NCBI GenBank assembly: GCA_021849425.1
Contig: JAJZSY010000009.1
Location: forward strand, 1 to 64,000
DNA: 64,000 nt
Reading direction: 5' to 3'
From: Pseudomonadota bacterium
GTDB taxonomy: Bacteria > Pseudomonadota > Alphaproteobacteria > Acetobacterales > Acetobacteraceae
The notes under the pieces are model-generated. The model was not told where the DNA came from and made no database searches. It saw only the letters and a program-made list of their open reading frames with translations. This document shows, one piece after another, positions 24,296-36,459 of this stretch. A program made the translations under genes and the position numbers. Within the stretch, counting starts at the first letter, position 1, and every line of letters starts with the position of its first letter.

Positions 24296-25300
24296 TTGTC
24301 CTTGTTCGATCAGTCGTCGATCATCCTCACGGTGGAAGTCCTGCAAACCCTGCTGGATTCGCTGCCCAATCCGGTCTTCCTGATCGACCGCGATCACCGC
24401 CTCGTCCTGGTCAATCAGGCGATGGCGGATTTCGTCGGCTATCCGCGCGAGTCGCTCGTCGGCCGCAATGGCGAGGGGCGGGTGCCGCGCGCGCTGCTCG
24501 AAGGCTACTGGCGGGTGGACGACCGCGTCTTCGCCACCGGCGAAAGCGACGAGACCGAGGAAATCGTCACCGGCGCCGGCGGCCGGCAGCGCATCGTGAT
24601 CACCCGCAAGCGCCTGATCCAGCTCGACACGCTGGCCGGTCCCACGCCGTTCATCATCGCCGCCCTGTCGGACGTGACCCGCTTTCGCGAGGCCGAGGCC
24701 CGCGCCCGCCACCTCGCCGCGCACGACAATCTCACCGGCCTGCCCAATCGCGGCCAGTTCACCCAGCGCCTCGCCGAGGCGCTCGCCGCGGCCCCGCGCA
24801 GCGGCGAACTGGTCGCCGTCCTGCTCGTCGATCTCGACGGATTCAAGCCGATCAACGACCAGTTCGGCCACATCGTCGGCGACAGCGTGCTGCGCATCAT
24901 CGGCCGTCGGCTCAGCGGGGTGATCCGCGCCGGCGACACCGTGGCCCGCCTCGGCGGCGACGAGTTCTGCGTGATCCAGCGCGGCATCTCGCACGAGGAT
25001 CACGCGCTCGCTCTGGCCGGCCGCATCGTCACGACGATCGGCCAGCCGCTGGCCACACGGCCCGCGCCGCTCACCGTCACCGCCTCGGTCGGTCTCGCGC
25101 TCTGCCCGTCCGACGGCGACGATCCCGAAACCCTGCTCGAACGCGCCGACCGCGCGCTCTACGCCGCCAAGCATGGCGGGCGCGGCGGGTTCCGCCGCTA
25201 CCATGCCGGCCTGCAACGGCCACTGGCGCCGCCGGACATGGTGGCCCTGCTGCGCGACCTGCCGGCCGATCCGCCGCCCGCCCCGGCGGAGGCGCCGTGA
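24296..25300 (+). CDS. PAS-GGDEF diguanylate cyclase
   Basis: The 334-residue protein has an N-terminal PAS domain (about 15-125) and a GGDEF domain (about 138-300) with an intact active site GGDEF at 220-224 and an inhibitory-site RxxD at 211-214. It makes cyclic di-GMP from two GTP. No membrane segment is seen. The frame opens with TTG 24296; no ATG is in frame near it. The stop overlaps the next gene's ATG as TGATG, so the two are translationally coupled. Confidence 0.85.
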   Translation: MSLFDQSSIILTVEVLQTLLDSLPNPVFLIDRDHRLVLVNQAMADFVGYPRESLVGRNGEGRVPRALLEGYWRVDDRVFATGESDETEEIVTGAGGRQRIVITRKRLIQLDTLAGPTPFIIAALSDVTRFREAEARARHLAAHDNLTGLPNRGQFTQRLAEALAAAPRSGELVAVLLVDLDGFKPINDQFGHIVGDSVLRIIGRRLSGVIRAGDTVARLGGDEFCVIQRGISHEDHALALAGRIVTTIGQPLATRPAPLTVTASVGLALCPSDGDDPETLLERADRALYAAKHGGRGGFRRYHAGLQRPLAPPDMVALLRDLPADPPPAPAEAP

Positions 25301-28158
25301 TGACCGCGCAGGACGCCGCGCATCAGCCGACGCTCTGCCAGGTGCTCGCCGGCGCCCGCGGGTTCGCCGCCTGGGAGATCGATCCGCTCGCCGGGCGGGT
25401 CCGCCCGCTCGCCGGCGGCGCGCCCGGTCCGGACTCCAACCAGCCGGCCGCCGAGTCGCTCGCCGCCTTTCTCGCCGGCATCGATGCGGACGACCGCGCC
25501 CGCGTTGCCGCTGCGCTCGACGCCGCGGCTGCGCCCGGCAGTATGGGGCTCGACATCGCCTTCCGCCGCGCCGGGGCCGCGCCCGGCGCCTTCTGGCAGC
25601 TCGCCCGCTTCCACGTCGTCGGGCGCGATGAGGCCGGGCGGCCCCTGCGTCTCGCCGGCATCATCGCGGATATCGGCGCCCTGCCGGATCTTGCCGCCGG
25701 CGCCCTCGGCAGCACCGAGAACGACCGTCTCGCCGCCCTCGCCGCCGAGCTTGCCCGCCGCACCGAGGAACTCGCCAGCGCCCATCGCCTCGCCCGGGTC
25801 GGCGCCTGGCGCTGGGATCTCGCCCGCCATCGCGTCTGGCTTTCAACCGAAACCCTCTGGCTGCTCGGCATCGAGGGCGCGGCCGCGGAGATGGATTACG
25901 ACCAGCTTCGCCGCATCATCCACCCCGACGACTATCATTACGCCATGGCCTGTTTCCGCGAAGCGGTTCAAACCGCGACGCCGGTCACGCTGGAATACCG
26001 CACCGTCCTGCCCGATGGCGCCATCCACGCCGTGCTTACCCATGCCGAGCCGGTGATCGGGGCCGATGGCCGCGTCGCTCAGCTGCGCGGCACCACCCAG
26101 GATGTCACCCCGTTCCGGCGGGTCGAGGCGGCGCTGCGCGAAAGCGAGGACCATTACCGCCACATGGTGGAGCTGCACCCGCAAATCCCCTGGACGGCGG
26201 GGCCGGATGGCGGGATTCTCGAAGTCGGCCCGCAATGGCTCGCCATCACCGGCATGACCCGCGAGGAGACCATGCCCTTCGGCTGGACCTCCGCCGTCCA
26301 CCCGGACGATCTCCCGCCCACCCTTGCCGCCTGGCAGCACAGCCTTGCCAGCGGCGATCCGGTCGATGTCGAGTTCCGCATCCGCGCCGCCGATGGCGCC
26401 TATGCCTGGGTGCGCGCCCGCGCCGCCGCCCGCCGCGATGAGGCCGGGCAGATCCTGCGCTGGTACGGCACGCTCGAAGACATTACCGACCGCTGGATGG
26501 CGGAAAACGCGCGCAAGGCGTCCGAGGCGCTGGCCCTGCGCGTGCTTGAGGCCAGCGGCGACGCGGTGATCGTCTTCGATGCCGCCGGCGCCGTCACCTT
26601 CGCCAATGCGCGCCTCGCCCCCCTGCTCGGGCTCGACGCGCCGCCGGAGGGCCTCGCCGCCGACGGTCTCTTCGCCTCCGCCCATTGCCGCGAGCTTTGC
26701 GCCGCGCTGAAGCGGGCGATGGAAACCGGCGCCGGCGCCCATTTCGAGCTGTTCTGGCCGCCGACCGATCGCTGGCTGGAAGCCACCATCGTCGCCGAAG
26801 CCAGCGACATCTCGCTCTTCCTGCGCGACGTCTCGGAAAAGCGCCTCGCCCAGCAGCAGCTCCGCTACGCCGCCAGCGTCGACTACATGACCGGCGCCGC
26901 CAACCGCGCCTCCCTGTTCTCCCGCCTGGCCGAGCAGTTGCAGTGCCAGCAGCCCGGAAACCTCACCGCGCTGCTCTGCCTCGATCTCGACTATTTCAAG
27001 GAAATCAACGACCAGCACGGCCACCCGACCGGCGATGCCGTGCTGCGCCAGCTCGTCAGCCGGCTGCGCCTCTGCCTGCGCTCGCGCGATCTGCTGGCCC
27101 GTTGCGGCGGCGATGAATTCGTCATCATGCAGACCGGCGTCTCCGCCCCGCCCGACGCCCTGGCGCTGGCCGACCGCATTCTCGCCGCGCTGCGCCAGCC
27201 TTTCGAGGTCGATGGCATCTCGCTGCCCGCCGGCGCCTCGATCGGCGTCGCCGTCGCACTCCCCGGCCAGGCCGACGCCGACTCCCTCTACCGCCAGGCC
27301 GATCGCGCGCTCTACGTCGCCAAATCCCGCGCCCGCGGCACCTACCGCCTGTTCCACCCCGACATGCTGCAAGCCGACGAGGCCAGCCGCCGCCTGCGCG
27401 CCGAGTTGTCGGGCGCGCTCGGCCGCGGCGAATTCGCGCTCGATTTCCAGCCCATCGTCCATCTCGCAACCCGCCGCACCGTCGGCGTCGAGGCGCTGCT
27501 CCGCTGGCACCATCCCGCCCGCGGCCTCATTCCGCCCGCCGAGTTCATCCCGCTCGCCGAGGAAAGCGGGCAGATCGCCGCCCTCGGCGCCTGGGTGCTG
27601 CGCCGCGCCTGTGCCGCCGCCCGCGCCTGGCCGGACGACGTCAAGATTTCCGTCAATGTCTCACCCCGCCAGTTCGAGATCGGCGACATCCGCGCTACCG
27701 TCACCGAAGCCCTCGCCGCCGCCGGCCTGCCCGCGAGCCGTCTCAAGCTCGAAATCACCGAATCCGTGCTGCTCTCGCAGAACGCCGCCAGCGCCCGCCT
27801 CCTGCAAGACCTGCGCGAACTTGGCGCGATGCTGGTGCTCGACGATTTCGGCACCGGCTTTTCCTCGCTCTCCTATCTCGACACGTTCAAGGTCGATGTC
27901 GTCAAGATCGACAAATCCTTCCTCTCCCGCATCCGCGCGCCCGGCGACCGCCAGCCCATCTTCGAGGCGATCATGGGCATGACCGCGGCACTCAACCTGC
28001 CCGTCACCGCCGAAGGCGTGGAAACCGCCGTCCAGCTCGACTACGTGACCAGCCTCGGCTGCGACTGGGCGCAGGGCTATTTCTTCTCCCCCCCGGTCCC
28101 CGAGGCCGAATTGCGGCGCCAGCTCCGCACCCCGGCCGCCGCCGCCCGCAACGGCTGA
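25300..28158 (+). CDS. PAS-GGDEF-EAL cyclic di-GMP enzyme
   Basis: The 952-residue protein contains PAS-type modules (about 160-275, 280-400, 410-515), a GGDEF domain (active site 603-607, RxxD at 594-597) and an EAL domain starting near 700. The EAL motifs EALLRW (731-736), DDFGTGFSS, KIDKSF and AEGVET are intact. Both cyclase and phosphodiesterase activities are therefore possible. It is coupled to the preceding PAS-GGDEF gene and lies directly upstream of the secreted adhesin-like locus. Control of that locus by c-di-GMP is plausible but inferred. Confidence 0.88.
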   Translation: MTAQDAAHQPTLCQVLAGARGFAAWEIDPLAGRVRPLAGGAPGPDSNQPAAESLAAFLAGIDADDRARVAAALDAAAAPGSMGLDIAFRRAGAAPGAFWQLARFHVVGRDEAGRPLRLAGIIADIGALPDLAAGALGSTENDRLAALAAELARRTEELASAHRLARVGAWRWDLARHRVWLSTETLWLLGIEGAAAEMDYDQLRRIIHPDDYHYAMACFREAVQTATPVTLEYRTVLPDGAIHAVLTHAEPVIGADGRVAQLRGTTQDVTPFRRVEAALRESEDHYRHMVELHPQIPWTAGPDGGILEVGPQWLAITGMTREETMPFGWTSAVHPDDLPPTLAAWQHSLASGDPVDVEFRIRAADGAYAWVRARAAARRDEAGQILRWYGTLEDITDRWMAENARKASEALALRVLEASGDAVIVFDAAGAVTFANARLAPLLGLDAPPEGLAADGLFASAHCRELCAALKRAMETGAGAHFELFWPPTDRWLEATIVAEASDISLFLRDVSEKRLAQQQLRYAASVDYMTGAANRASLFSRLAEQLQCQQPGNLTALLCLDLDYFKEINDQHGHPTGDAVLRQLVSRLRLCLRSRDLLARCGGDEFVIMQTGVSAPPDALALADRILAALRQPFEVDGISLPAGASIGVAVALPGQADADSLYRQADRALYVAKSRARGTYRLFHPDMLQADEASRRLRAELSGALGRGEFALDFQPIVHLATRRTVGVEALLRWHHPARGLIPPAEFIPLAEESGQIAALGAWVLRRACAAARAWPDDVKISVNVSPRQFEIGDIRATVTEALAAAGLPASRLKLEITESVLLSQNAASARLLQDLRELGAMLVLDDFGTGFSSLSYLDTFKVDVVKIDKSFLSRIRAPGDRQPIFEAIMGMTAALNLPVTAEGVETAVQLDYVTSLGCDWAQGYFFSPPVPEAELRRQLRTPAAAARNG

Positions 28159-28208: not shown

Positions 28209-28254
28209 GAGCATCACCCGATCGGATGGAGTCATCTGATCGGAAAGTGCTCTA
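28209..28254. repeat. Palindromic repeat element, left side of the adhesin locus
   Basis: An imperfect inverted repeat has left arm GAGCATCACCCGATCGGATG and right arm CATCTGATCGGAAAGTGCTC, separated by about six bases. Its outer GAGCA...TGCTC arms and CCG-to-CGGAT core resemble the three tandem palindromes at 36257-36385. Similar dispersed GAGCAT palindromes are known to me from alphaproteobacterial intergenic regions. It lies 50 bases after the GGDEF-EAL gene and could also act as an mRNA 3' hairpin. Confidence 0.6.
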
Positions 28255-28473: not shown

Positions 28474-29037
28474 ATGTTCAGAAGAAAGCTGAGGCACTGC
28501 ACGCGGCTTTTCATTGTCCTGGCTGCGATGACGGCAGGAGCGCGGGCAAATGGGTATGGAACGGATTCGCCTTATCAACTCCCGACGCCAGCCGATCTTG
28601 CCAATCTCGGTGCCGTGGAAAGCATAATTCTCCAAAAACAGGCAGGAATGTATCATTCTCCTGTATATAATTCCTACAGTACAACAAATATCGCAAAGCA
28701 GACGAACTGCAATGTTGCGCCAACAACGTATGGAAATTCGGGAACGACGGGAGCAACGGCCGGCTCCCCGAGTACTGTCGGGGCCACGCCGAGTGCGATA
28801 GGCAATTCAAGTTCAACGCAGTCTTCGCTGTCGGCATCGACCGCAGGCACGCCCCTGACCACGACGGGGCAGACAAACAGCGGAGCGGTCGGAACCGTCC
28901 TGAATGGTTCGACAAGCACGTCGATCGCCGGAACCTATTCCCAGGCGCTTAACAGTAACCAGACCAATGGGGGGACGCAGAGCGCGTCAGTAAGCAACAG
29001 TACTGCATGTTCTGTTGGTTCCGGATCGCTGAACTAG
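28474..29037 (+). CDS. Secreted Ser/Thr/Asn/Gly-rich protein of the adhesin locus
   Basis: The 187-residue product has a basic N terminus and signal peptide (about 1-27, ending ARA). After an N-terminal region with a YNSYSTTNIAKQTNCN segment comes a low-complexity Ser/Thr/Gly/Asn/Ala stretch (about 85-185) like the large repeat protein downstream. Two Cys are present, one near 80 and one near the end. GAGGT six bases upstream supports ATG 28474; upstream GTG and TTG are alternatives. It ends two bases before the CsgG-like gene. By position it could be an HfaA- or minor-subunit-like protein; sequence alone does not show it. Confidence 0.7.
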   Translation: MFRRKLRHCTRLFIVLAAMTAGARANGYGTDSPYQLPTPADLANLGAVESIILQKQAGMYHSPVYNSYSTTNIAKQTNCNVAPTTYGNSGTTGATAGSPSTVGATPSAIGNSSSTQSSLSASTAGTPLTTTGQTNSGAVGTVLNGSTSTSIAGTYSQALNSNQTNGGTQSASVSNSTACSVGSGSLN

Positions 29038-29039
29038 CC

Positions 29040-30434
29040 ATGACCCAGACAACTGAAAATCGTCTTCTTCCCCTGCCACGCAACCTGGTGGCGCTGGCGA
29101 CATCCCCGCGCTGCTTGATTCGGCGTGTTTCACGAGCGCGCATGCTGCGCGGCACCGCGGTGCTGCTCTTGAGCAGTCAGGCGCTGGTAGGCTGCGCGTC
29201 CATCGGCATGCAGCGGGTTGAGCCCGGAGAGGCGCCTATCGTGCTGGGTCCCAAGGTCAGATACAATCTGACGCCGGTCGATCCGGCCTTCGCCTGCCTC
29301 GCCGACGAGATCGTCCGCGACGACAAGCCGCGCCTGACCTTCGCGGTCGGCGACATCAAGGACTACACGGGCCGCTACAACATCAACGAGGGCAACGCCA
29401 TCACGCAGGGCGGCGCGCTGATGGTCGAGACGGCTCTGGGGCATCTCGGCAACGCGATAACGCAGGTTGAGCGCGTCGATCCTCATATCACCCAGATGGA
29501 GCTGGGTTACACCGACCAGCGAGAGCTGGGCGATGGCCGTCCGCACCAGTTGAAGCCGGGCGCAGGCCCGGTGCCGTGGATGCCCTATTATGGCGGCACG
29601 ATCCTGCGTTCACAATATTACATCATCGGCGGCATTACCGAGCTGAATTACAATATTCAAAGTGGTGGCGTGCAGGTCATGCAGAATCTGTCCGGCCCCT
29701 CGGCAACCACCTTCACCGAAAACATCGCGATCGACCTCGAGCTTGTGGATACCCAGACGACACAGATTGTCAAAACCGTCAGTCTCGAAAAGCAGATCGT
29801 CGGCTATCAGGTGAGCGCCGGCATTTTCCGGTTCTTCGGCAGCAACCTGTGGGATGTGAACATCGGGGCCAAGAACGAGGAGCCGCTGGAGCTTGGCGTG
29901 CGCACCACGCTGGAACAGGGGACTCTGGATCTGGTGGCGGCAGCCGAGCATCTGAGTCCTCTGCCCTGTATGAAAAAGGTCCGGGATCGCATCTCCGAAA
30001 AGACGGCCGATCAGCTGCGCAAGACGCCAAACCACGTAAAGATCATCCAGCCGCCAATGCCTCCCGGCGCTGAGCAGCCGCTTGCCAGGCCGCTTGCGGG
30101 CGCCAGCGGGGGCGCCATGATCAAGCTGGCCTTCGATTTCGGTTCATCGGAGATCCCGCCAGGAGATGGCGGTCTCCTAACAAAGATCGCGCAGATGGCA
30201 GCAAAAGCCCCGGTAACGGTCGAGCTGCTGGCGCCCGCCCTCGAGGATTGGTCTCCCATGAACCGTTACGGGTTCGTCCAGGCCCGCATAGCCGCGCTGA
30301 AGTCGGGTCTTGCAACCCATGGCATGGCGGCGCCGGTGGTCACCACCCAGTGGGCCCCGTCCGATACCGACAGCAAAATCTATCATGAGGGCTCAAGTTA
30401 TCAGAAGGTGGCAATCGTTACGATTAATAAATAA
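29040..30434 (+). CDS. CsgG/HfaB-like outer-membrane secretion lipoprotein with OmpA-like C terminus
   Basis: The 464-residue protein has a lipobox LVGC with lipidated C52. The body (about 95-310) matches CsgG/HfaB, the nonameric outer-membrane channel for curli or holdfast-anchor proteins. Examples are VETALGHLGNAI, the IIGGITELNYNIQSGG strand (195-210) and GYQVSAGIFRFF (255-266), which parallels the CsgG signature. Unlike CsgG (about 277 residues), a tail (about 358-464, starting LAFDFGSSEIPP) looks like a degenerate OmpA/MotB peptidoglycan-associated domain. ATG 29142 is an alternative start with a shorter leader. It probably exports the flanking repeat-rich proteins. Confidence 0.82.
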   Translation: MTQTTENRLLPLPRNLVALATSPRCLIRRVSRARMLRGTAVLLLSSQALVGCASIGMQRVEPGEAPIVLGPKVRYNLTPVDPAFACLADEIVRDDKPRLTFAVGDIKDYTGRYNINEGNAITQGGALMVETALGHLGNAITQVERVDPHITQMELGYTDQRELGDGRPHQLKPGAGPVPWMPYYGGTILRSQYYIIGGITELNYNIQSGGVQVMQNLSGPSATTFTENIAIDLELVDTQTTQIVKTVSLEKQIVGYQVSAGIFRFFGSNLWDVNIGAKNEEPLELGVRTTLEQGTLDLVAAAEHLSPLPCMKKVRDRISEKTADQLRKTPNHVKIIQPPMPPGAEQPLARPLAGASGGAMIKLAFDFGSSEIPPGDGGLLTKIAQMAAKAPVTVELLAPALEDWSPMNRYGFVQARIAALKSGLATHGMAAPVVTTQWAPSDTDSKIYHEGSSYQKVAIVTINK

Positions 30435-30506
30435 TATAAATAAAAGAAAATACAAATGACGACATCGTAAAGCTACCGAAACCTTACGAATCAGATAGAC
30501 TCAAAA

Positions 30507-30522
30507 CATCCAAAACTGGATG
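30507..30522 (+). promoter_or_regulatory. Small hairpin in the leader of the giant repeat protein
   Basis: CATCCA-AAAC-TGGATG forms a six-base-pair stem with a four-base loop, ending 26 bases before the TTG start of the large repetitive gene and just upstream of its GGGAGAGAG ribosome site. The 114-base gap around it is AT-rich. It could influence translation, but this is only a structural observation. Confidence 0.3.
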
Positions 30523-30548
30523 GGTAATCTTCAAAATGGGAGAGAGTT

Positions 30549-33500
30549 TTGAAAACCGCAAAGCTACGAACTAATCTGCTGGGATCTACAGCGGCAAGTT
30601 TGCTATTCTTCGGTGCCATGTATGGCGGCCAGGGATTTGCGCAGACTGCGAAAACAACTGTCGGCGCAACGTCCGCCGTGGCGGCCGGCCCCGGCGCGGC
30701 GACTGGGTATACATCTAACTATTTCAACGCCCAGAATACCCCGTCCAGCACGGCAACAGCTAATCTGGCGATCTCGGCCACCGCGTCCAACCAGACCTCT
30801 GGCGCGACGTTCACCGGCACCGGTGGTACCGGCACTGTTGCCAATTCGTCAACGACAACCGCGAACACCATCGCTGCGCAGGCCACGGGCAACACCCTGA
30901 CCAACACGGTCGATCTGGCGACGATCGGCGGCACGACGGCGGGAACAACCGGCAACGGCCTTGCGGTCCTGACCCAGGAAGCCAATAACGCAACGACGAA
31001 TGGCGCAAATACCTACGTCGTTGCCGTCAACGCGACCACCACCGCCAACACGCTCCAGAACGTCACGACGGACGCCGTCAGCGGTTCCAGCCTCGCCCAG
31101 AGCGCCAACGCCATTTCGTCGTCGGCGACCGGAAATGCGAGCAACACCACCATCAGCGGTGCTGTTCCGGTAACCTACGTCGGTCAGGGTGCGGCTGGCA
31201 GTGCCGTTCTCTCGTCTCAGGCGACAACGGGCAACGCCCTCGACGCCTCCGCCAATATTGCCCTGAGCAACGCGCAGGCCAATAATTCCATCGCCGGAAC
31301 AAGCGCTGCTTCCACCACGAACAACACGGTCAATCTCGCGGTAAATTCCTCGGCCGGGACAAACGCGCAGACGCAGTCGCTGACTGCGGCGCAGACGGGC
31401 AACACCGTGTCGGCCTCCTACACCGGCAATACCGCGACCAGCACGCTTTCGGTTGCCTCCGGCTCGGCGCCCAGCCTCGATGGCAGCGCGCTGGTCAGCA
31501 ACCTGCAAAGCAACACCCAGACGACCGCGCCGACAGGTGCGACGACGAGCTCTGTGACTGGAAACAGCATCACCGCGTCCGTCGCGTCGGGTGCTTCGAC
31601 CAACAACCCGATCACGCTCTCGAACGGCAGCCTGACCCAGTCGGGCAACGCGATCAGCGGCTCCTCCACGGGCAATACCGCGACCAATCTCGCCGAACTC
31701 GCCGGCACGATGAACCTCGCCGGTGCGACCACGACGCAGGCGAACACGTCGGCTTCGGGCACGCCCACGAATACCCTCCAGGCTGATTTCGGGATCGCCA
31801 GCCAGCAATCCCAGGTCAACTCCATCGCCGCTCAGTCGTCGGTCTCCGGTAACAGCATCACCTCCCTCGCGCAGAACGTGAGCGGCTCGACGGTGAGCGG
31901 AACCGGCAACACCATCAACGCGTCGGCCACCAACAATAGCGTGTCGAACGCCGTCACCATCCCGACTTCGGGCGCCAATGCCGCCACGCTCGATGGGCTG
32001 ATCGGCATCAACAGCCTGCAGACCGCGACCGGCTCGGCCGTCACCGCCAACAACTCCGGCAACACCGTCTCGCTGACCGCCGGAACCGATGGAACCACGA
32101 CCCCCCTCGCCACCGCCACGGTCAGCAACTCCACCCTGGCTTTGACGGGTAACGGCACCAGCGCGTCGGCGGTTGGCAACAACGCGGTGAGCGCAACCGG
32201 CGGCGCCGGCAACGCGCTGACGGTGAGCGGCACCAACGTGAACGCATACCCGAATGCGGGTACCGCGTCGCTGGCGGGCCTGACCTATGATGGAACCACA
32301 CTGACGGCCGCCGCCGGCCTGTCCGTTGGCAACAACCAGAGTTCCAGCACCTCGCCGGTCACCGCCACCAACAGCGGCAACGCGATCAAACTGACTGCCA
32401 ATGGAACCACTCTTACCGGTGACACCCTGAGCCTGTCCGGCGCGGCCGGCACCTACGCGGCCCAGGCTATCGCGCAGAGCAACAACGCGTCGAATGCGCT
32501 CAGCGTGAATGCTGACCAGTTGGCCGGCTCCGCGGGTCTCGCCAGCGTGCAGACCGACGCCAGCGGCGCCTCCGCCACGCTGCTGAACCCGAATATCGAG
32601 ATCGCGGCGAATACGACGGGCAACAACCCGATCTCGAACTCCTCGATCACCCTCGGCGGCGCCAACGGCAACATCCTGCGGTCTCTGGCGTATGGCAACG
32701 CCAATGCCAACACGCTGAACTCGACCTCGACCGGCCTTAACGTCTACACGGCGACGGCCCCAGCCACCGCTGTGTCTCTGGCGTCGACCAGCAATAGCGC
32801 GGATGCGGCGCTGGCATTGTTCAACAGCCAGTCCGAAACCGCGAGTGTGACCGCGAAGGCGACAACCACGAACCCGCTTCTCATCGCTCTCGGTGCGGGC
32901 AATGTGAGCGGCTCGACCGTCAGCAACACCAATAACCAGTTTGTTGCGGCGGGCTACGGCAACCAGACCAGCAACGCTGCCAACGTGTCGACCACCGACC
33001 TCGCGCAGCCGACTGCCGGAGCAACAACGCCGGCGGCAGCCTTCCTGCCCGTGGCGGCGGTTGCCAACACCTCGACGTTGAGCGGCGCGGTTTCCAGCAC
33101 CGTGAGCGGTGCCTCGGCGAATACGGGTCTGTTCAACCTGACGACGGCGACCGGAACGGGCACCGTCAGCGGCTCGACGCTGAGCCTCAGCGGCAATAAT
33201 GCGCTGGCCCAGGCCAACGGCAACCTTGCTTCCGCCAACAACCTGACCGTCACCGGCACCAGCCTGATCGATGCAAGCGGGACGGCCATTACCGCGCCTG
33301 TGTCCTATAATGGAACCACGGCGTCGGTGAACGCGGGCTTCAGCGTGGCCAACACCCAGTCCGCCTCCAATACTGTCTCGGCAACCCAGACCAATACTGG
33401 CGCGCTTCTCAGCCTCGGCGGCACCGGTGCGGTCTCGAATTCGACCCTGCAGGCGCAGAACAACAACTTCAACGCGTCGGCGACCACCAACAGCGCGTCG

Positions 33501-35546
33501 AATAACCTCGTGATCGGCACCTCCACCACGCCGGTTGCGGTGCTGACAAGCTCCGCCGGCGGGCTCAATGTCCAGACGGTGACGAGCGCTGGCGGCACTT
33601 CGGCGTCTGTCGGTAATGCCGGCTCCCCGGCCGTGACGTCAACCACCGGCGTCAACGGTAATTACACCGGGTCTTCGATTGCAAGCACCAATAACACGAT
33701 TACACTGACTTCGGGCCAGACCCTTACGTTCAGCACGACAGGGACGGGCCTCACGCCGGCTCAGTTGGCCTCTGTCATTTCGGCTACGGGTGGTGGCACT
33801 GTCTCGGTTAGTGGGACCAATGTGGTGTTGACGCCGGGAACGTCGTCGTCGACATTTACATTCCCGACGGGAACGACCTTTACGATCAATACGGCGGCGA
33901 AGACTGTCGCAACCGCAGGAACAATTACCGTTCCTGCCCTGAACACCACGCCGTTCGTTCAGGTTGCCACGTCTGGTAATCTGACCAACAGCACCTTGTC
34001 GGTGACGGGTAACAACTATGGCGCGGTCGCGCAGGGCAACGTTGGCACCACCAACGTCTCGGTGACGGCGGATACTGTCAACGGCGGCGCCCTTGCGGGA
34101 ACCCAGAGCAGCGCAACCGTTGCGTCGACCACCTCGCAAACGGCCACGGCCGATCTGTCGGCGGTCAACGCGCAAACCAACGCCTCGATCACCAGCGCCA
34201 CGGCCTATGGTGGAGCCGAGATCACCAGCTCGGCAACCTCGCCGGCGATTTCGGGATCGACCCTCAGCGTGTCGAATAACTCGCTGAACGCGACGGCCCA
34301 GGCCAACGTCGCGACGACTGCCCTCACGGTCAACGGCACGATTTCGCAGAACAATACGACAGCGGGGACCTACGCGACGTCCGGCGCCCTGGTGTCGAGC
34401 CAGAATGCGACCAATAACGTGACGGCTACCGCGGGTACCGTGGCCACCTCGCCCACGACCACATCGTCGGTCGGCCAGACCGTGACCTCCCCGGGCGCGA
34501 TCGGCTCCAGCTCCAGCCTGGCGCTGAACGGCAACACCACAACGGCCACGGCGAATGCCAACAGCGCGACCAACACGCTGACGGCAAACGCGACGAGGCT
34601 GGACAACCCCACAACCAGCGCGGCGTCGATCACGACGAATCTGCAAACGGTCAATGCGGCATACGCGTTGAACAACACGCAGTCCTCGTCCGGTGCCACC
34701 ACCGGCGTGACCGCCCAGGCCAACAGCTCGGTCAGCAACAGCGATACGGCTGGCAGCACCGGCCTGCAGAGCAGCTCGGTTGTTCTCAACGGTAACACGA
34801 CGACGGCGAACGCCATCGCCAACACCGCGGCGAACACGCTCAACGTCGCGGGCTCGACCGTGAACGCGCCGGCAGCATTGCTGAATAACCAGAACAACGC
34901 CGACTCGGTTTCCGCGGCAGGCACCTCGAACGTTCAGTTCAGCCTGACCGGCGGCACCGCGACCACTCCGGCGGCCTCCGGCTCGACGATTGCACTGACG
35001 AACAATGCTCTGAATGTGCAGGCGGCGGGCAACTCCAGCGTGAACGCACTCAACGCCCTGCCGACCGCGAGCTTCGGCACCCAGGCGGCCGGTGCTTCGG
35101 CTGGCGGAACGACGGCCACCACGGCGCAGTTCGTGGCTCTGAACGCCCAGACCAACAGCGGGTCGGTCAGCGCGACGAGTTCTGAATTCGGTGCAACCGC
35201 GCCCACCAGCCAGTTCAGCGTGGCTCTGAACGGTGCAACCGGCGGTACGGCACAGGTTCAGAACACCAGCGTGAGCGTCATGGGCAATGCCGTCAACGTG
35301 AACGCCTTCGGCAACTCGGCCCAGAACACGGTGACCCTTGCTGGCCTGAATAGTGGCAACGCAACCAGCGCGTTGCAGAACACCCAGGCCAACACTGGCA
35401 ACGTGACCGCCACTGCCGGCTACAACGCCTTCGGCGTCACGACCGGTGCTCCTGGCGCAACTGGCAGCACTGTCAATGTCGCGAATAACAGCATTGTTGC
35501 CCGGGCGACCGGCAACAGCGCCATCAACACGGTTGTTGCTCACTAA
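30549..35546 (+). CDS. Giant repetitive secreted Thr/Ala/Ser/Asn-rich adhesin or fibre protein
   Basis: The 1665-residue protein has a signal peptide (1-31, ending GFA) and then an almost uncharged sequence of Thr, Ala, Ser, Asn, Gly and Val. I find no Cys or Trp in it and only a terminal His. A unit of about 26 residues recurs roughly 18 times, with approximate form [GN]S[ST]-[LVI]-x-[LV]-x-[GN]N-x3-[AV]-x-A-x2-N-[SA]-x2-N-x-[LV]. Between copies are blocks with N-x-Q-S or N-x-Q-T followed by V-[ST]-A. This regular polar/hydrophobic alternation suggests a beta-solenoid or amyloid-like fibre, as in CsgA or HfaD. Start is TTG 30549 with a GGGAGAG site; no ATG fits. It is probably exported through the CsgG-like channel. 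Confidence 0.8.
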   Translation: MKTAKLRTNLLGSTAASLLFFGAMYGGQGFAQTAKTTVGATSAVAAGPGAATGYTSNYFNAQNTPSSTATANLAISATASNQTSGATFTGTGGTGTVANSSTTTANTIAAQATGNTLTNTVDLATIGGTTAGTTGNGLAVLTQEANNATTNGANTYVVAVNATTTANTLQNVTTDAVSGSSLAQSANAISSSATGNASNTTISGAVPVTYVGQGAAGSAVLSSQATTGNALDASANIALSNAQANNSIAGTSAASTTNNTVNLAVNSSAGTNAQTQSLTAAQTGNTVSASYTGNTATSTLSVASGSAPSLDGSALVSNLQSNTQTTAPTGATTSSVTGNSITASVASGASTNNPITLSNGSLTQSGNAISGSSTGNTATNLAELAGTMNLAGATTTQANTSASGTPTNTLQADFGIASQQSQVNSIAAQSSVSGNSITSLAQNVSGSTVSGTGNTINASATNNSVSNAVTIPTSGANAATLDGLIGINSLQTATGSAVTANNSGNTVSLTAGTDGTTTPLATATVSNSTLALTGNGTSASAVGNNAVSATGGAGNALTVSGTNVNAYPNAGTASLAGLTYDGTTLTAAAGLSVGNNQSSSTSPVTATNSGNAIKLTANGTTLTGDTLSLSGAAGTYAAQAIAQSNNASNALSVNADQLAGSAGLASVQTDASGASATLLNPNIEIAANTTGNNPISNSSITLGGANGNILRSLAYGNANANTLNSTSTGLNVYTATAPATAVSLASTSNSADAALALFNSQSETASVTAKATTTNPLLIALGAGNVSGSTVSNTNNQFVAAGYGNQTSNAANVSTTDLAQPTAGATTPAAAFLPVAAVANTSTLSGAVSSTVSGASANTGLFNLTTATGTGTVSGSTLSLSGNNALAQANGNLASANNLTVTGTSLIDASGTAITAPVSYNGTTASVNAGFSVANTQSASNTVSATQTNTGALLSLGGTGAVSNSTLQAQNNNFNASATTNSASNNLVIGTSTTPVAVLTSSAGGLNVQTVTSAGGTSASVGNAGSPAVTSTTGVNGNYTGSSIASTNNTITLTSGQTLTFSTTGTGLTPAQLASVISATGGGTVSVSGTNVVLTPGTSSSTFTFPTGTTFTINTAAKTVATAGTITVPALNTTPFVQVATSGNLTNSTLSVTGNNYGAVAQGNVGTTNVSVTADTVNGGALAGTQSSATVASTTSQTATADLSAVNAQTNASITSATAYGGAEITSSATSPAISGSTLSVSNNSLNATAQANVATTALTVNGTISQNNTTAGTYATSGALVSSQNATNNVTATAGTVATSPTTTSSVGQTVTSPGAIGSSSSLALNGNTTTATANANSATNTLTANATRLDNPTTSAASITTNLQTVNAAYALNNTQSSSGATTGVTAQANSSVSNSDTAGSTGLQSSSVVLNGNTTTANAIANTAANTLNVAGSTVNAPAALLNNQNNADSVSAAGTSNVQFSLTGGTATTPAASGSTIALTNNALNVQAAGNSSVNALNALPTASFGTQAAGASAGGTTATTAQFVALNAQTNSGSVSATSSEFGATAPTSQFSVALNGATGGTAQVQNTSVSVMGNAVNVNAFGNSAQNTVTLAGLNSGNATSALQNTQANTGNVTATAGYNAFGVTTGAPGATGSTVNVANNSIVARATGNSAINTVVAH

Positions 35547-35565
35547 CTGGAGCAAGAACACCTTG

Positions 35566-35595
35566 GAGGGGAAGCATTCGCTTCCCCTCTTTTTT
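35566..35595 (+). terminator. Rho-independent terminator after the giant repeat gene
   Basis: A perfect ten-base-pair stem GAGGGGAAGC/GCTTCCCCTC with loop ATTC is followed by six T. It begins 20 bases after the stop of the large repetitive gene and ends 30 bases before the next start. It separates the export/adhesin transcript from the peptidoglycan-binding gene, at least partly. Confidence 0.92.
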
Positions 35596-35624
35596 GCTTA
35601 ACCGCTTGGACATGGAGTTCATTG

Positions 35625-36251
35625 ATGGGTTGTCGTACGTCTCGTCTCGTCAAGGTCGCAACTGTCGCTCTCGCGTGCGGCTGGTTCGCTTCGCACGCAG
35701 CCCGGGCCGCCGATGCCAGGGGTAATTTCGCCGTCAATGGCATTGGCGCGACATCCTGCGCGGATACGGTCAACGCCATCAACCATGGCCAGGTCGCCGT
35801 GCGTGCGGAGTTGTCGAGCTGGCTGATGGGATATATCAGCGCCCTCAATCGTGTTGATCCCAATACGTTCGATATCGTGCCTGTTCAGTCCGCGAACGCG
35901 ATGACAAACCTCGTTGTCAACATCTGCGCCAAGAACGGCAAGGCGATGGTCGCCGGAGTTGCGAACTCGATTATCGACACGCTGAAACTCGGCGCGATAC
36001 ACACCTCGTCGCCGCTGGTGACGGCGTCGTTCGGCGGCAAGTCCGTCGCGATCCGCGAGACGACCCTGAAGCGTCTTCAGACCTACCTGAAGAAGCATAA
36101 ATATCTTTCAGGCCCGGTGGACGGCCAATTCGGCCCCAGCACTCAAGCCGCGATCAAGGCGTTTCAGGTCAAGCAAAAGCTGGTTGTCAACTCTCTTCCC
36201 GACGCCGAAACGGTGATCCAGGCCGTCGTCGTTCCCGCGATGAAAAAATAA
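35625..36251 (+). CDS. Secreted protein with HdeA-like N-terminal region and peptidoglycan-binding domain
   Basis: The 208-residue product has a signal peptide (1-29, ending ARA). An N-terminal domain (about 40-120) has two Cys and a WLMGYISALN segment, resembling HdeA/Rap1a-like periplasmic folds. The C-terminal PG_binding_1 domain (about 142-195) includes LQTYLKKHKYL, GPVDGQFGPSTQAAIKAFQ. GGAG upstream supports ATG 35625. It lies just after the adhesin terminator with similar base composition. It may anchor the surface structure to the cell wall or act as a periplasmic helper; this is inferred. Confidence 0.78.
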   Translation: MGCRTSRLVKVATVALACGWFASHAARAADARGNFAVNGIGATSCADTVNAINHGQVAVRAELSSWLMGYISALNRVDPNTFDIVPVQSANAMTNLVVNICAKNGKAMVAGVANSIIDTLKLGAIHTSSPLVTASFGGKSVAIRETTLKRLQTYLKKHKYLSGPVDGQFGPSTQAAIKAFQVKQKLVVNSLPDAETVIQAVVVPAMKK

Positions 36252-36256
36252 AGTGG

Positions 36257-36385
36257 ATAGAACATCATTCAACCGGATAGGGATGCTCTATTTCTCAACA
36301 TGGTAGAGCATCATCCGCCGGGATAAGGATGCTCTATTTTTCAATATGATAGAGCATCATCCGACCGGATAACGATGCTCTATTT
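36257..36385. repeat. Three tandem palindromic repeats with 46-base period
   Basis: Copies at 36257-36293, 36303-36340 and 36349-36385 each contain TAGAGCATC...GATGCTCTA arms (first copy degenerate, TAGAACATC) around a CCG/GGAT core. The period is exactly 46 bases with short AT-rich links, and each copy is followed by a T run. The palindrome at 28209-28254 is related, so repeats of this family lie on both sides of the adhesin locus. They may be REP-like elements and may also end transcripts. Confidence 0.85.
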
Positions 36386-36459
36386 CACAGTGCCATGGAT
36401 CATCCCGGAACCCGGCCCCGCTCAGCGCCCCTGTCTGCGCGGGCAAGGCTCCGAAACAC

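Follow-up and report, generated by a model that had tools for sequence, protein, structure and literature searches.

A CsgG-type gene cassette with a giant repeat protein: a candidate surface-fibre export system in Acetobacteraceae and other Proteobacteria

The window analysed here is a stretch of 64,000 nucleotides from a bacterium of the Acetobacteraceae (assembly GCA_021849425.1, contig JAJZSY010000009.1, positions 1 to 64,000), and it carries a putative export cassette that combines genes for a small secreted partner (a), a CsgG/HfaB-family lipoprotein (B), a giant repeat protein (D) and a secreted peptidoglycan-binding protein (E). An earlier note, made from the sequence alone, had described four consecutive plus-strand genes at this place and proposed for them a curli/holdfast-like export system; all four open reading frames (ORFs) are present in that arrangement, as follows.

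28474..29037, + strand: gene a, 187 amino acids (aa), secreted, Ser/Thr/Asn-rich, no Pfam or NCBIfam match
29040..30434, + strand: gene B, 464-aa CsgG/HfaB-family lipoprotein, by Pfam CsgG and (below cut-off) NCBIfam HfaB
30105..30431, + strand: residues 356-464 of B, a C-terminal tail judged OmpA-like from its predicted topology and its alignment with relatives
30549..35546, + strand: gene D, 1,665 aa, TTG start, secreted giant repeat protein, by repeat profile
34554..35543, + strand: last 330 aa of D, an all-beta repeat fold in the structural model
35622..36251, + strand: gene E, 209 aa, secreted, with a conserved N-terminal part and a PG_binding_1 domain, by Pfam

Signal peptides (a, D and E) and the lipobox of B were judged by eye. 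Proteins a, B and D of the window are called P0001, P0002 and P0003, and L- and G-numbers designate loci and genomes. The host genome is a 2.9-Mb draft in 65 contigs, 94% complete, with one CsgG protein. A search of the contigs of named genomes with a P0002 alignment returned 214 related places, the best 80 of which (L075-L154) were examined; P0002 alone as the query found no relatives in these contigs. Many of the 80 loci are closely related, and counts over them are therefore not counts of independent events.

A CsgG-type lipoprotein, a giant repeat protein and a small partner

By its profile matches, B is a CsgG-type protein. P0002 matches Pfam CsgG (PF03783) at an E-value of 3.3e-16 with 59.7 bits, above the cut-off of 20.8, a domain in common with curli, and it matches NCBIfam HfaB (NF037935) at 5.9e-59 with 199 bits, short of the curated cut-off of 300. 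The description of B in the note as a CsgG/HfaB-like lipoprotein, for which a CsgG profile had been named as the test, is borne out. The same Pfam family was found in 40/40 B proteins (P0002 together with those from 39 of the 80 loci), and Cys 52, which by eye lies at the lipobox, is invariant in 40 aligned B proteins. A structural model of B aligned with CsgG (4uv2) at Z 14.4, with a root-mean-square deviation (rmsd) of 5.0 over 173; for the whole model the mean predicted local distance difference test score (pLDDT) was 70.5 and the predicted template modelling score (pTM) 0.47.

Most B proteins extend beyond the CsgG-type region, with tails of more than 70 aa in 35 of the 40. From residue 361 onward the window's model has 10-residue pLDDT means of 91-97 and a predicted beta-alpha-beta-alpha-beta-beta topology, and this tail aligns with the OmpA-like tails of relatives. 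Pfam OmpA was matched at E 0.1 in 18/40 B proteins (best 4.3e-20), and the tail of the L062 protein matched P6 (8e-15) and Pal (4e-11) in the PDB. OmpA is absent among the PDB matches listed for the window's B model, which cover residues 77-308. An Arg is retained in all 35 of the long tails. The canonical Asp occupies its aligned column in 2 of them, and in 26 more an acidic residue precedes that column by one position; we take the Arg and Asp positions to be peptidoglycan-binding residues. In the related locus L016 (L016:2-1354, genome G283), the contig start truncates B, whose end appears, by eye, to be frame-shifted within the OmpA-like tail.

The giant protein had been noted for its repeats, which stand up to comparison with shuffled sequences. 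P0003 has no Pfam or NCBIfam match at E 1. With a repeat profile built from the C-terminal 75 aa of 58 D proteins, it contains 21 candidate units of any score, 12 of them above 5 bits (20 shuffles averaged 0.1), with starts mostly 60-100 aa apart. When the last 60 aa were left out, at least three internal units were present in 69/70 D proteins (P0003 and those of 69 loci) and in 0/70 shuffled copies, the sole protein with fewer being a 285-aa fragment at a contig edge. Across the 80 loci, at least three units occur in 79 of 1,082 called ORFs, and apart from four a proteins (L107, L111, L118 and L139) these represent D ORFs, parts of D ORFs or duplicate copies of D. A GN...A...GN motif lies in the last 60 aa of 57/67 D proteins of at least 900 aa. 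The D ORFs of relatives range from 285 aa (the contig-end fragment) to 2,792 aa, and 64/69 of them measure 1,000-2,792 aa. An AlphaFold model of the C-terminal 330 aa of P0003 is all-beta, with a mean pLDDT of 90.1 and a pTM of 0.86. In some loci a second D-type protein lies downstream of the first (L090, 16738-21144; L154, 16008-19922; L075, 16217).

The small partner a shares the half-repeat of D. Half-repeats of the form Q-x-N-x-G, as seen in D, occur in 76/80 a proteins against 45/400 shuffles, and at least one D unit above 5 bits is found in 70/80 a proteins against 1/400 shuffled copies; 35/80 have at least two such units and 5/80 at least three, and P0001 has a single one (6.2 bits). 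An hhalign comparison of a with the D repeat gave 33.7%. P0001 has no Pfam or NCBIfam match at E 1. Two cysteines are present in 80/80 aligned members of the a family and a W-Q-F motif lies close to the N-terminus in more than 90% of them; the motif is degenerate in the window (PYQL, by eye). Possession of the half-repeat of D is what would be expected of a nucleator or tether.

Gene E matches PG_binding_1 at 2e-13, in agreement with its description in the note as a secreted peptidoglycan-binding protein (secretion being judged by eye). Relatives of E follow D in 12/80 named loci and also in L014, L016 and L064, and a separate E of this kind may take over wall binding in the branch of the window.

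Conservation, distribution and surroundings of the cassette

The 80 loci belong to Variovorax, Novosphingobium, Sphingomonas, Acidocella, Aureimonas, Limnohabitans, Halomonas, Pseudoxanthomonas and others, within the Alpha-, Beta- and Gammaproteobacteria. Gene a was recognized in 79/80, on the strand of B in 79/79, with its end 15-151 nt upstream of the aligned B core; in L121, the one locus without it, the DNA in front of B is 471 bases long. Downstream of B, 69/80 loci have a D-type ORF, chosen initially for its place and composition, and the giant gene, whose co-occurrence with B had been proposed as a check, does keep company with it. Of the 11 loci without D, seven (L094, L109, L116, L122, L140, L143 and L145) reach a contig edge no more than 330 bases from B, and in L108 an ORF of 432 aa carries 3 repeat units. 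The full order a-B-D-E is found in Acidocella L119. Five flanking genes of the window had no match at 1e-5 in L119, L121, L126 or L016, and the cassette therefore behaves as a unit in different surroundings. Judged from gene order and repeat content, a-B-D is a conserved unit. In one branch an unnamed secreted protein of 402-464 aa follows B (L062:9078-10286, L063:5908-7125, L152:11300-12691 and L153:11301-12566), and in L062 and L063 it stands between B and D.

Within the family, P0002 matched 11/299 genomes, its own included, and none of the 6 other genomes of the genus. These matches fall into three kinds by gene neighbourhood: cassettes like that of the window (the window, G195, G167 and G283, where the contig of G167 ends inside D and that of G283 starts inside B, so that a is not visible in the latter), HfaB loci with other cargo (G111, G103 and G033), and loci with proteins that look curlin-like by eye (G266, G162, G121 and G113). 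An alignment of the C-terminus of D found only the window and G283 among the 299 genomes, and no D without B was seen in them, an alignment of this kind missing diverged D proteins such as that of G195. A class survey with the HfaB model matched 42/385 genomes, 19 of them over the cut-off; related giant-bearing cassettes also occur in G336, G463 and G635. A seven-row a profile matched 3/398 genomes drawn from the phylum, that of the window included. By these surveys the cassette is rare and patchy.

Other HfaB-type loci met in the surveys differ in their cargo. Three of the second kind (L017, L018 and L019) have a separate OmpA-looking protein, a small protein starting QGYxEQRTL, a long-tailed HfaB and large STN-rich proteins, and the D repeat was found in none of five large proteins of L017 and L019. 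In L066, L067, L070, L072, L073 and L074 an HfaB-type gene is followed by a protein of 319-584 aa that begins like FDxVNWxW, often accompanied by a small PWS/PYSF-type protein; regulators that look LuxR-like by eye lie close to these genes. The HfaB model has five matches in G313.

In a B tree of 52 rows (midpoint root, several long branches), 45 cassette-type B proteins form a group of their own (94/86), four HfaB proteins that pass the HfaB cut-off group together (99/99) and three second-kind proteins stand apart too. The B of the window groups with Acidocella (96/97), and alpha-, beta- and gammaproteobacterial rows are intermixed. A cassette also lies on a plasmid of Variovorax paradoxus VAI-C (CP063168.1), with EAL genes on both sides; its a (identified by position) and B are annotated there as hypothetical protein and its D as 'S-layer family protein'. 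The mixture of classes in the tree, the patchy spread and the plasmid copy together point to horizontal transfer of the cassette.

The features that surround the cassette in the window are listed separately as context.

24296-25300, + strand: PAS-GGDEF gene, by Pfam
25297-28158, + strand: PAS-GGDEF-EAL gene, by Pfam
36256..36386, no strand: palindromic repeat, 46 bp in 2.8 copies, a dispersed element with a related copy at 28209

The two genes, which overlap slightly (24296-28158), form a pair for cyclic di-GMP (c-di-GMP) turnover just upstream of the cassette. The genus-mate G232 has relatives of both, with the neighbouring pair 73-74% identical, and no B in its whole genome; a clean empty site was not obtained there, the pgk flank being missing too.

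The composition of the locus was said in the earlier note to set it apart, and it does: the GC content of the cassette is 0.619, against 0.657-0.724 in 201 overlapping stretches of the same length from the rest of the window, and that of the 315 bases upstream is 0.403. The flanking repeats that had been added to this argument are real (28209 and 36256-36386) but not special to the locus. The 46-bp repeat has matches with at most 3 mismatches at 4 further genome sites, so the element does not mark the cassette, and we rejected it in that role. Palindromic elements of this type, of 35-46 bp, are dispersed in the genome, with copies at G000 C56, C60 and C30:86354 besides those in the window.

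A probable dedicated fibre exporter and its alternatives

CsgG-type pores are known for the export of small amyloid subunits and of holdfast-anchor proteins. We consider it likely that the cassette is a dedicated export and assembly system of the CsgG/HfaB superfamily for a giant surface fibre, and it probably works like the curli or Hfa exporter. In favour of this stand the family and fold of B, the conserved company of a and D, the repeat that a and D share, the all-beta C-terminus of D with the E. coli CsgA fibril as its best second-look match, the hhalign result for the D repeat (62.7% against an HfaD set, 0.1% against curlins), the OmpA matches among B proteins, an EAL gene in the flanks of 20/80 loci and the full gene order in L119. 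For D we infer export, fibre formation and adhesion along the following lines. The chain would cross the inner membrane by Sec, be threaded unfolded through an oligomer of B in the outer membrane, and fold outside the cell into one very long beta-repeat fibre. Protein a would leave through the B pore too and nucleate or tether D there, by analogy with CsgB in curli or with HfaA and HfaD in the holdfast anchor. The assembly could be tied to peptidoglycan by the OmpA-like B tail in many relatives or by E in the branch of the window, the product would be a cell-surface adhesin or biofilm fibre, and c-di-GMP perhaps switches the fibre in some hosts.

Several observations weigh against this reading. 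The D model covers 330 of 1,665 residues, and Foldseek with it returned no match at E 0.001 in the PDB and viral libraries. On a second look its best match was the E. coli CsgA fibril (Z 10.7, rmsd 8.3 over 102 residues), with which the SufD beta-helix (rmsd 2.4 over 125, Z 10.3) is tied; the comparison tool warns that below about Z 13 repeats may have no more than an arrangement in common. The C-terminus of D fits a beta-solenoid-like repeat, which is no proof of amyloid. The P0002 tail has no Pfam OmpA match at E 0.1, and neither acidic residue is present in 7/35 tails (P0002, three Acidocella, L130, L146 and L147). We therefore give less weight to a peptidoglycan-binding role for the tail of P0002. 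Three loci (L147, L152 and L153) have a and B with no D called in the DNA examined. Protein a matches no HfaA model, and hhalign of a against HfaA was weak (20.8%). The D repeat is marginal on the L055 HfaD, which passes its own cut-off (5.9 bits, shuffle maximum 4.3). Control by c-di-GMP is a weak point only: one EAL gene family occurs in the examined flanks of 20/80 loci (one member checked by Pfam), a figure that stands without a background count and to which many close relatives contribute, and inspection of Acidocella L119 and L126 by eye revealed no GGDEF or EAL gene.

The cassette might instead make a functional amyloid in the manner of curli, in which many D molecules polymerize, with D as the repeat subunit and a as the nucleator. 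A CsgG-type pore, a small partner that shares the repeat of the large protein and an all-beta repeat model whose best second-look match is an amyloid fibril are all compatible with such a scheme. The other curli components were not found, however, as the earlier note had also seen: the window's genome, at 94% completeness, has 0 matches to the curlin repeat (PF07012), to CsgE (PF10627) and to CsgF (PF10614), all of which match in E. coli controls. Pfam found no curlin repeat in P0003 or in four other D proteins, the D repeat profile left four curlin-looking proteins (labelled 'csgA' by eye, L020-L023) below their shuffles, and hhalign of the D repeat against the curlin-looking set gave 0.1%. 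One chain of 1,000-2,792 aa could, moreover, itself be the fibre without polymerizing, and we regard a curli-like polymer as rather unlikely.

A second alternative is a holdfast anchor proper, a variant of HfaABD by which a secreted polysaccharide would be attached to the cell and in which D would correspond to an enlarged HfaD. The gene order is that of HfaA-HfaB-HfaD in L055, L056 and L059, B is homologous to HfaB, and the window's genome has two Poly_export proteins in clusters that look polysaccharide-type by eye. There is also some repeat similarity between D and HfaD-type proteins, since the D repeat profile scored 13.1 bits (shuffle maximum 2.9) on the HfaD-like protein of L056, which lies beside a canonical HfaB and itself reaches 47.7 bits with the HfaD model (cut-off 100), and hhalign gave 62.7% with a set of HfaD proteins some of which had been chosen for their position and composition. 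Three other HfaD candidates were not above shuffles with the profile (the label 'HfaD' in L057-L059 being assigned by eye), and the marginal score mentioned above belongs to the sole HfaD over the cut-off. The Hfa models themselves match nothing in the cassette beyond the HfaB score that stays below its cut-off. HfaA (NF037934), which passes in L055 and L056 as controls, had no match to P0001 at E 1 or to the a proteins of L119 and L062 at E 10; HfaD (NF037936), which passes in L055 and matches its Caulobacter vibrioides control, found 0/8 cassette or related genomes at E 10 and matched neither P0003 (E 1) nor the D of L119. The cassette B group also lies apart in the tree from the four HfaB proteins over the cut-off, and Variovorax, Sphingomonas and Acidocella are not known as holdfast makers, which counts against a holdfast. 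An anchor of this type strikes us as improbable.

The fibre could alternatively belong to the mating apparatus of a mobile element and stabilize mating pairs. VirB8- and VirB9-type genes lie up to about 10 kb upstream in 10/80 loci (L107, L111, L117, L120, L123, L124, L125, L131, L139 and L148), VirB10-type genes in 9 and VirB6-type genes in 7, with a Pfam check of four representatives, and the Variovorax plasmid would suit a mobile element. These loci, in Sphingomonadales and one Pseudoxanthomonas locus, have a short D (about 1,000 aa in nine and 454 aa in L148). The four of them in the tree (L107, L120, L123 and L148) fall, however, in one clade of 7 (95/92), and around the cassettes of the window, L119 and L126 no conjugation genes were noticed by eye, no profile search having been made there; a mating function for the cassette is very unlikely. 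That D is merely a low-complexity ORF which chance has placed beside an unrelated CsgG gene would fit its biased composition, its lack of a Pfam name and the initial choice of D ORFs in the loci by position and composition, but the order is kept across three proteobacterial classes and the repeats are absent from shuffles, and we dismiss this explanation almost entirely.

A dedicated exporter of a giant fibre is the reading we retain as likely. The observation in the earlier note is confirmed and its interpretation partly supported: on profile, repeat and gene-order evidence the locus is of the CsgG type, holds a giant repeat protein, is related to Hfa, shows no csgA, csgE or csgF and is conserved as a unit. 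More tentatively, and with somewhat less than even confidence, we suggest a third CsgG-superfamily machine beside curli and the holdfast anchor. Its pore would carry a peptidoglycan-binding tail of its own and secrete a giant fibre made of one beta-repeat chain of as many as 2,800 residues; a partner with two cysteines and the half-repeat of the fibre would nucleate it, and the machine would have moved between proteobacterial classes, in part with plasmids and in the vicinity of conjugation genes. The cassette is not described in the open-access literature as far as titles and the beginnings of abstracts among the matches listed reveal, which is no proof of novelty. If this proposal is true, the range of cargo exportable by CsgG-type pores would extend to single chains of one to three thousand residues, and the cassette would offer a natural test of the chain length that such a pore can thread, suggest a way of tying the pore to the cell wall, and give a testable attachment role to unnamed proteins of Variovorax, Novosphingobium, Sphingomonas and Acidocella.

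Comparison with curli, Pal/OmpA-type domains and the Hfa anchor

With curli (CsgA/B/E/F/G) the cassette shares the CsgG pore fold and the pairing of a repeat protein with a small partner that carries the same repeat. It differs in the lack of curlin repeat, CsgE and CsgF matches in the window's genome and in the length of D, which far exceeds that of CsgA homologues, given as up to 529 aa and 22 repeats in PMC3521004, in the main text of which the words HfaB and OmpA do not occur. The Pal/OmpA-type domain recurs as the C-terminal domain of many cassette B proteins, with the difference that in the cassette it is fused to a CsgG-type protein and is degenerate in the window and in Acidocella.

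The loose likeness to hfaABD proposed in the earlier note stands in so far as the cassette is related to Hfa and its gene order matches, and it fails at the level of the curated thresholds. Both systems comprise a small secreted protein, a CsgG-type lipoprotein and a repeat protein (in Hfa, NF037934, NF037935 and NF037936), in the order seen in L055, L056 and L059, and the B of the window is a clear HfaB homologue. In contrast to Hfa, the cassette reaches none of the three curated thresholds, its a has conserved cysteines and a motif of its own, its B tails exceed 70 aa in 35/40 and are often OmpA-like, and its cargo is much larger, as had been claimed, with D proteins of 1,000-2,792 aa in 64/69 against the 374 model positions of HfaD. 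By the tests run, the cassette is a member of the CsgG/HfaB superfamily that belongs to neither curli nor Hfa.

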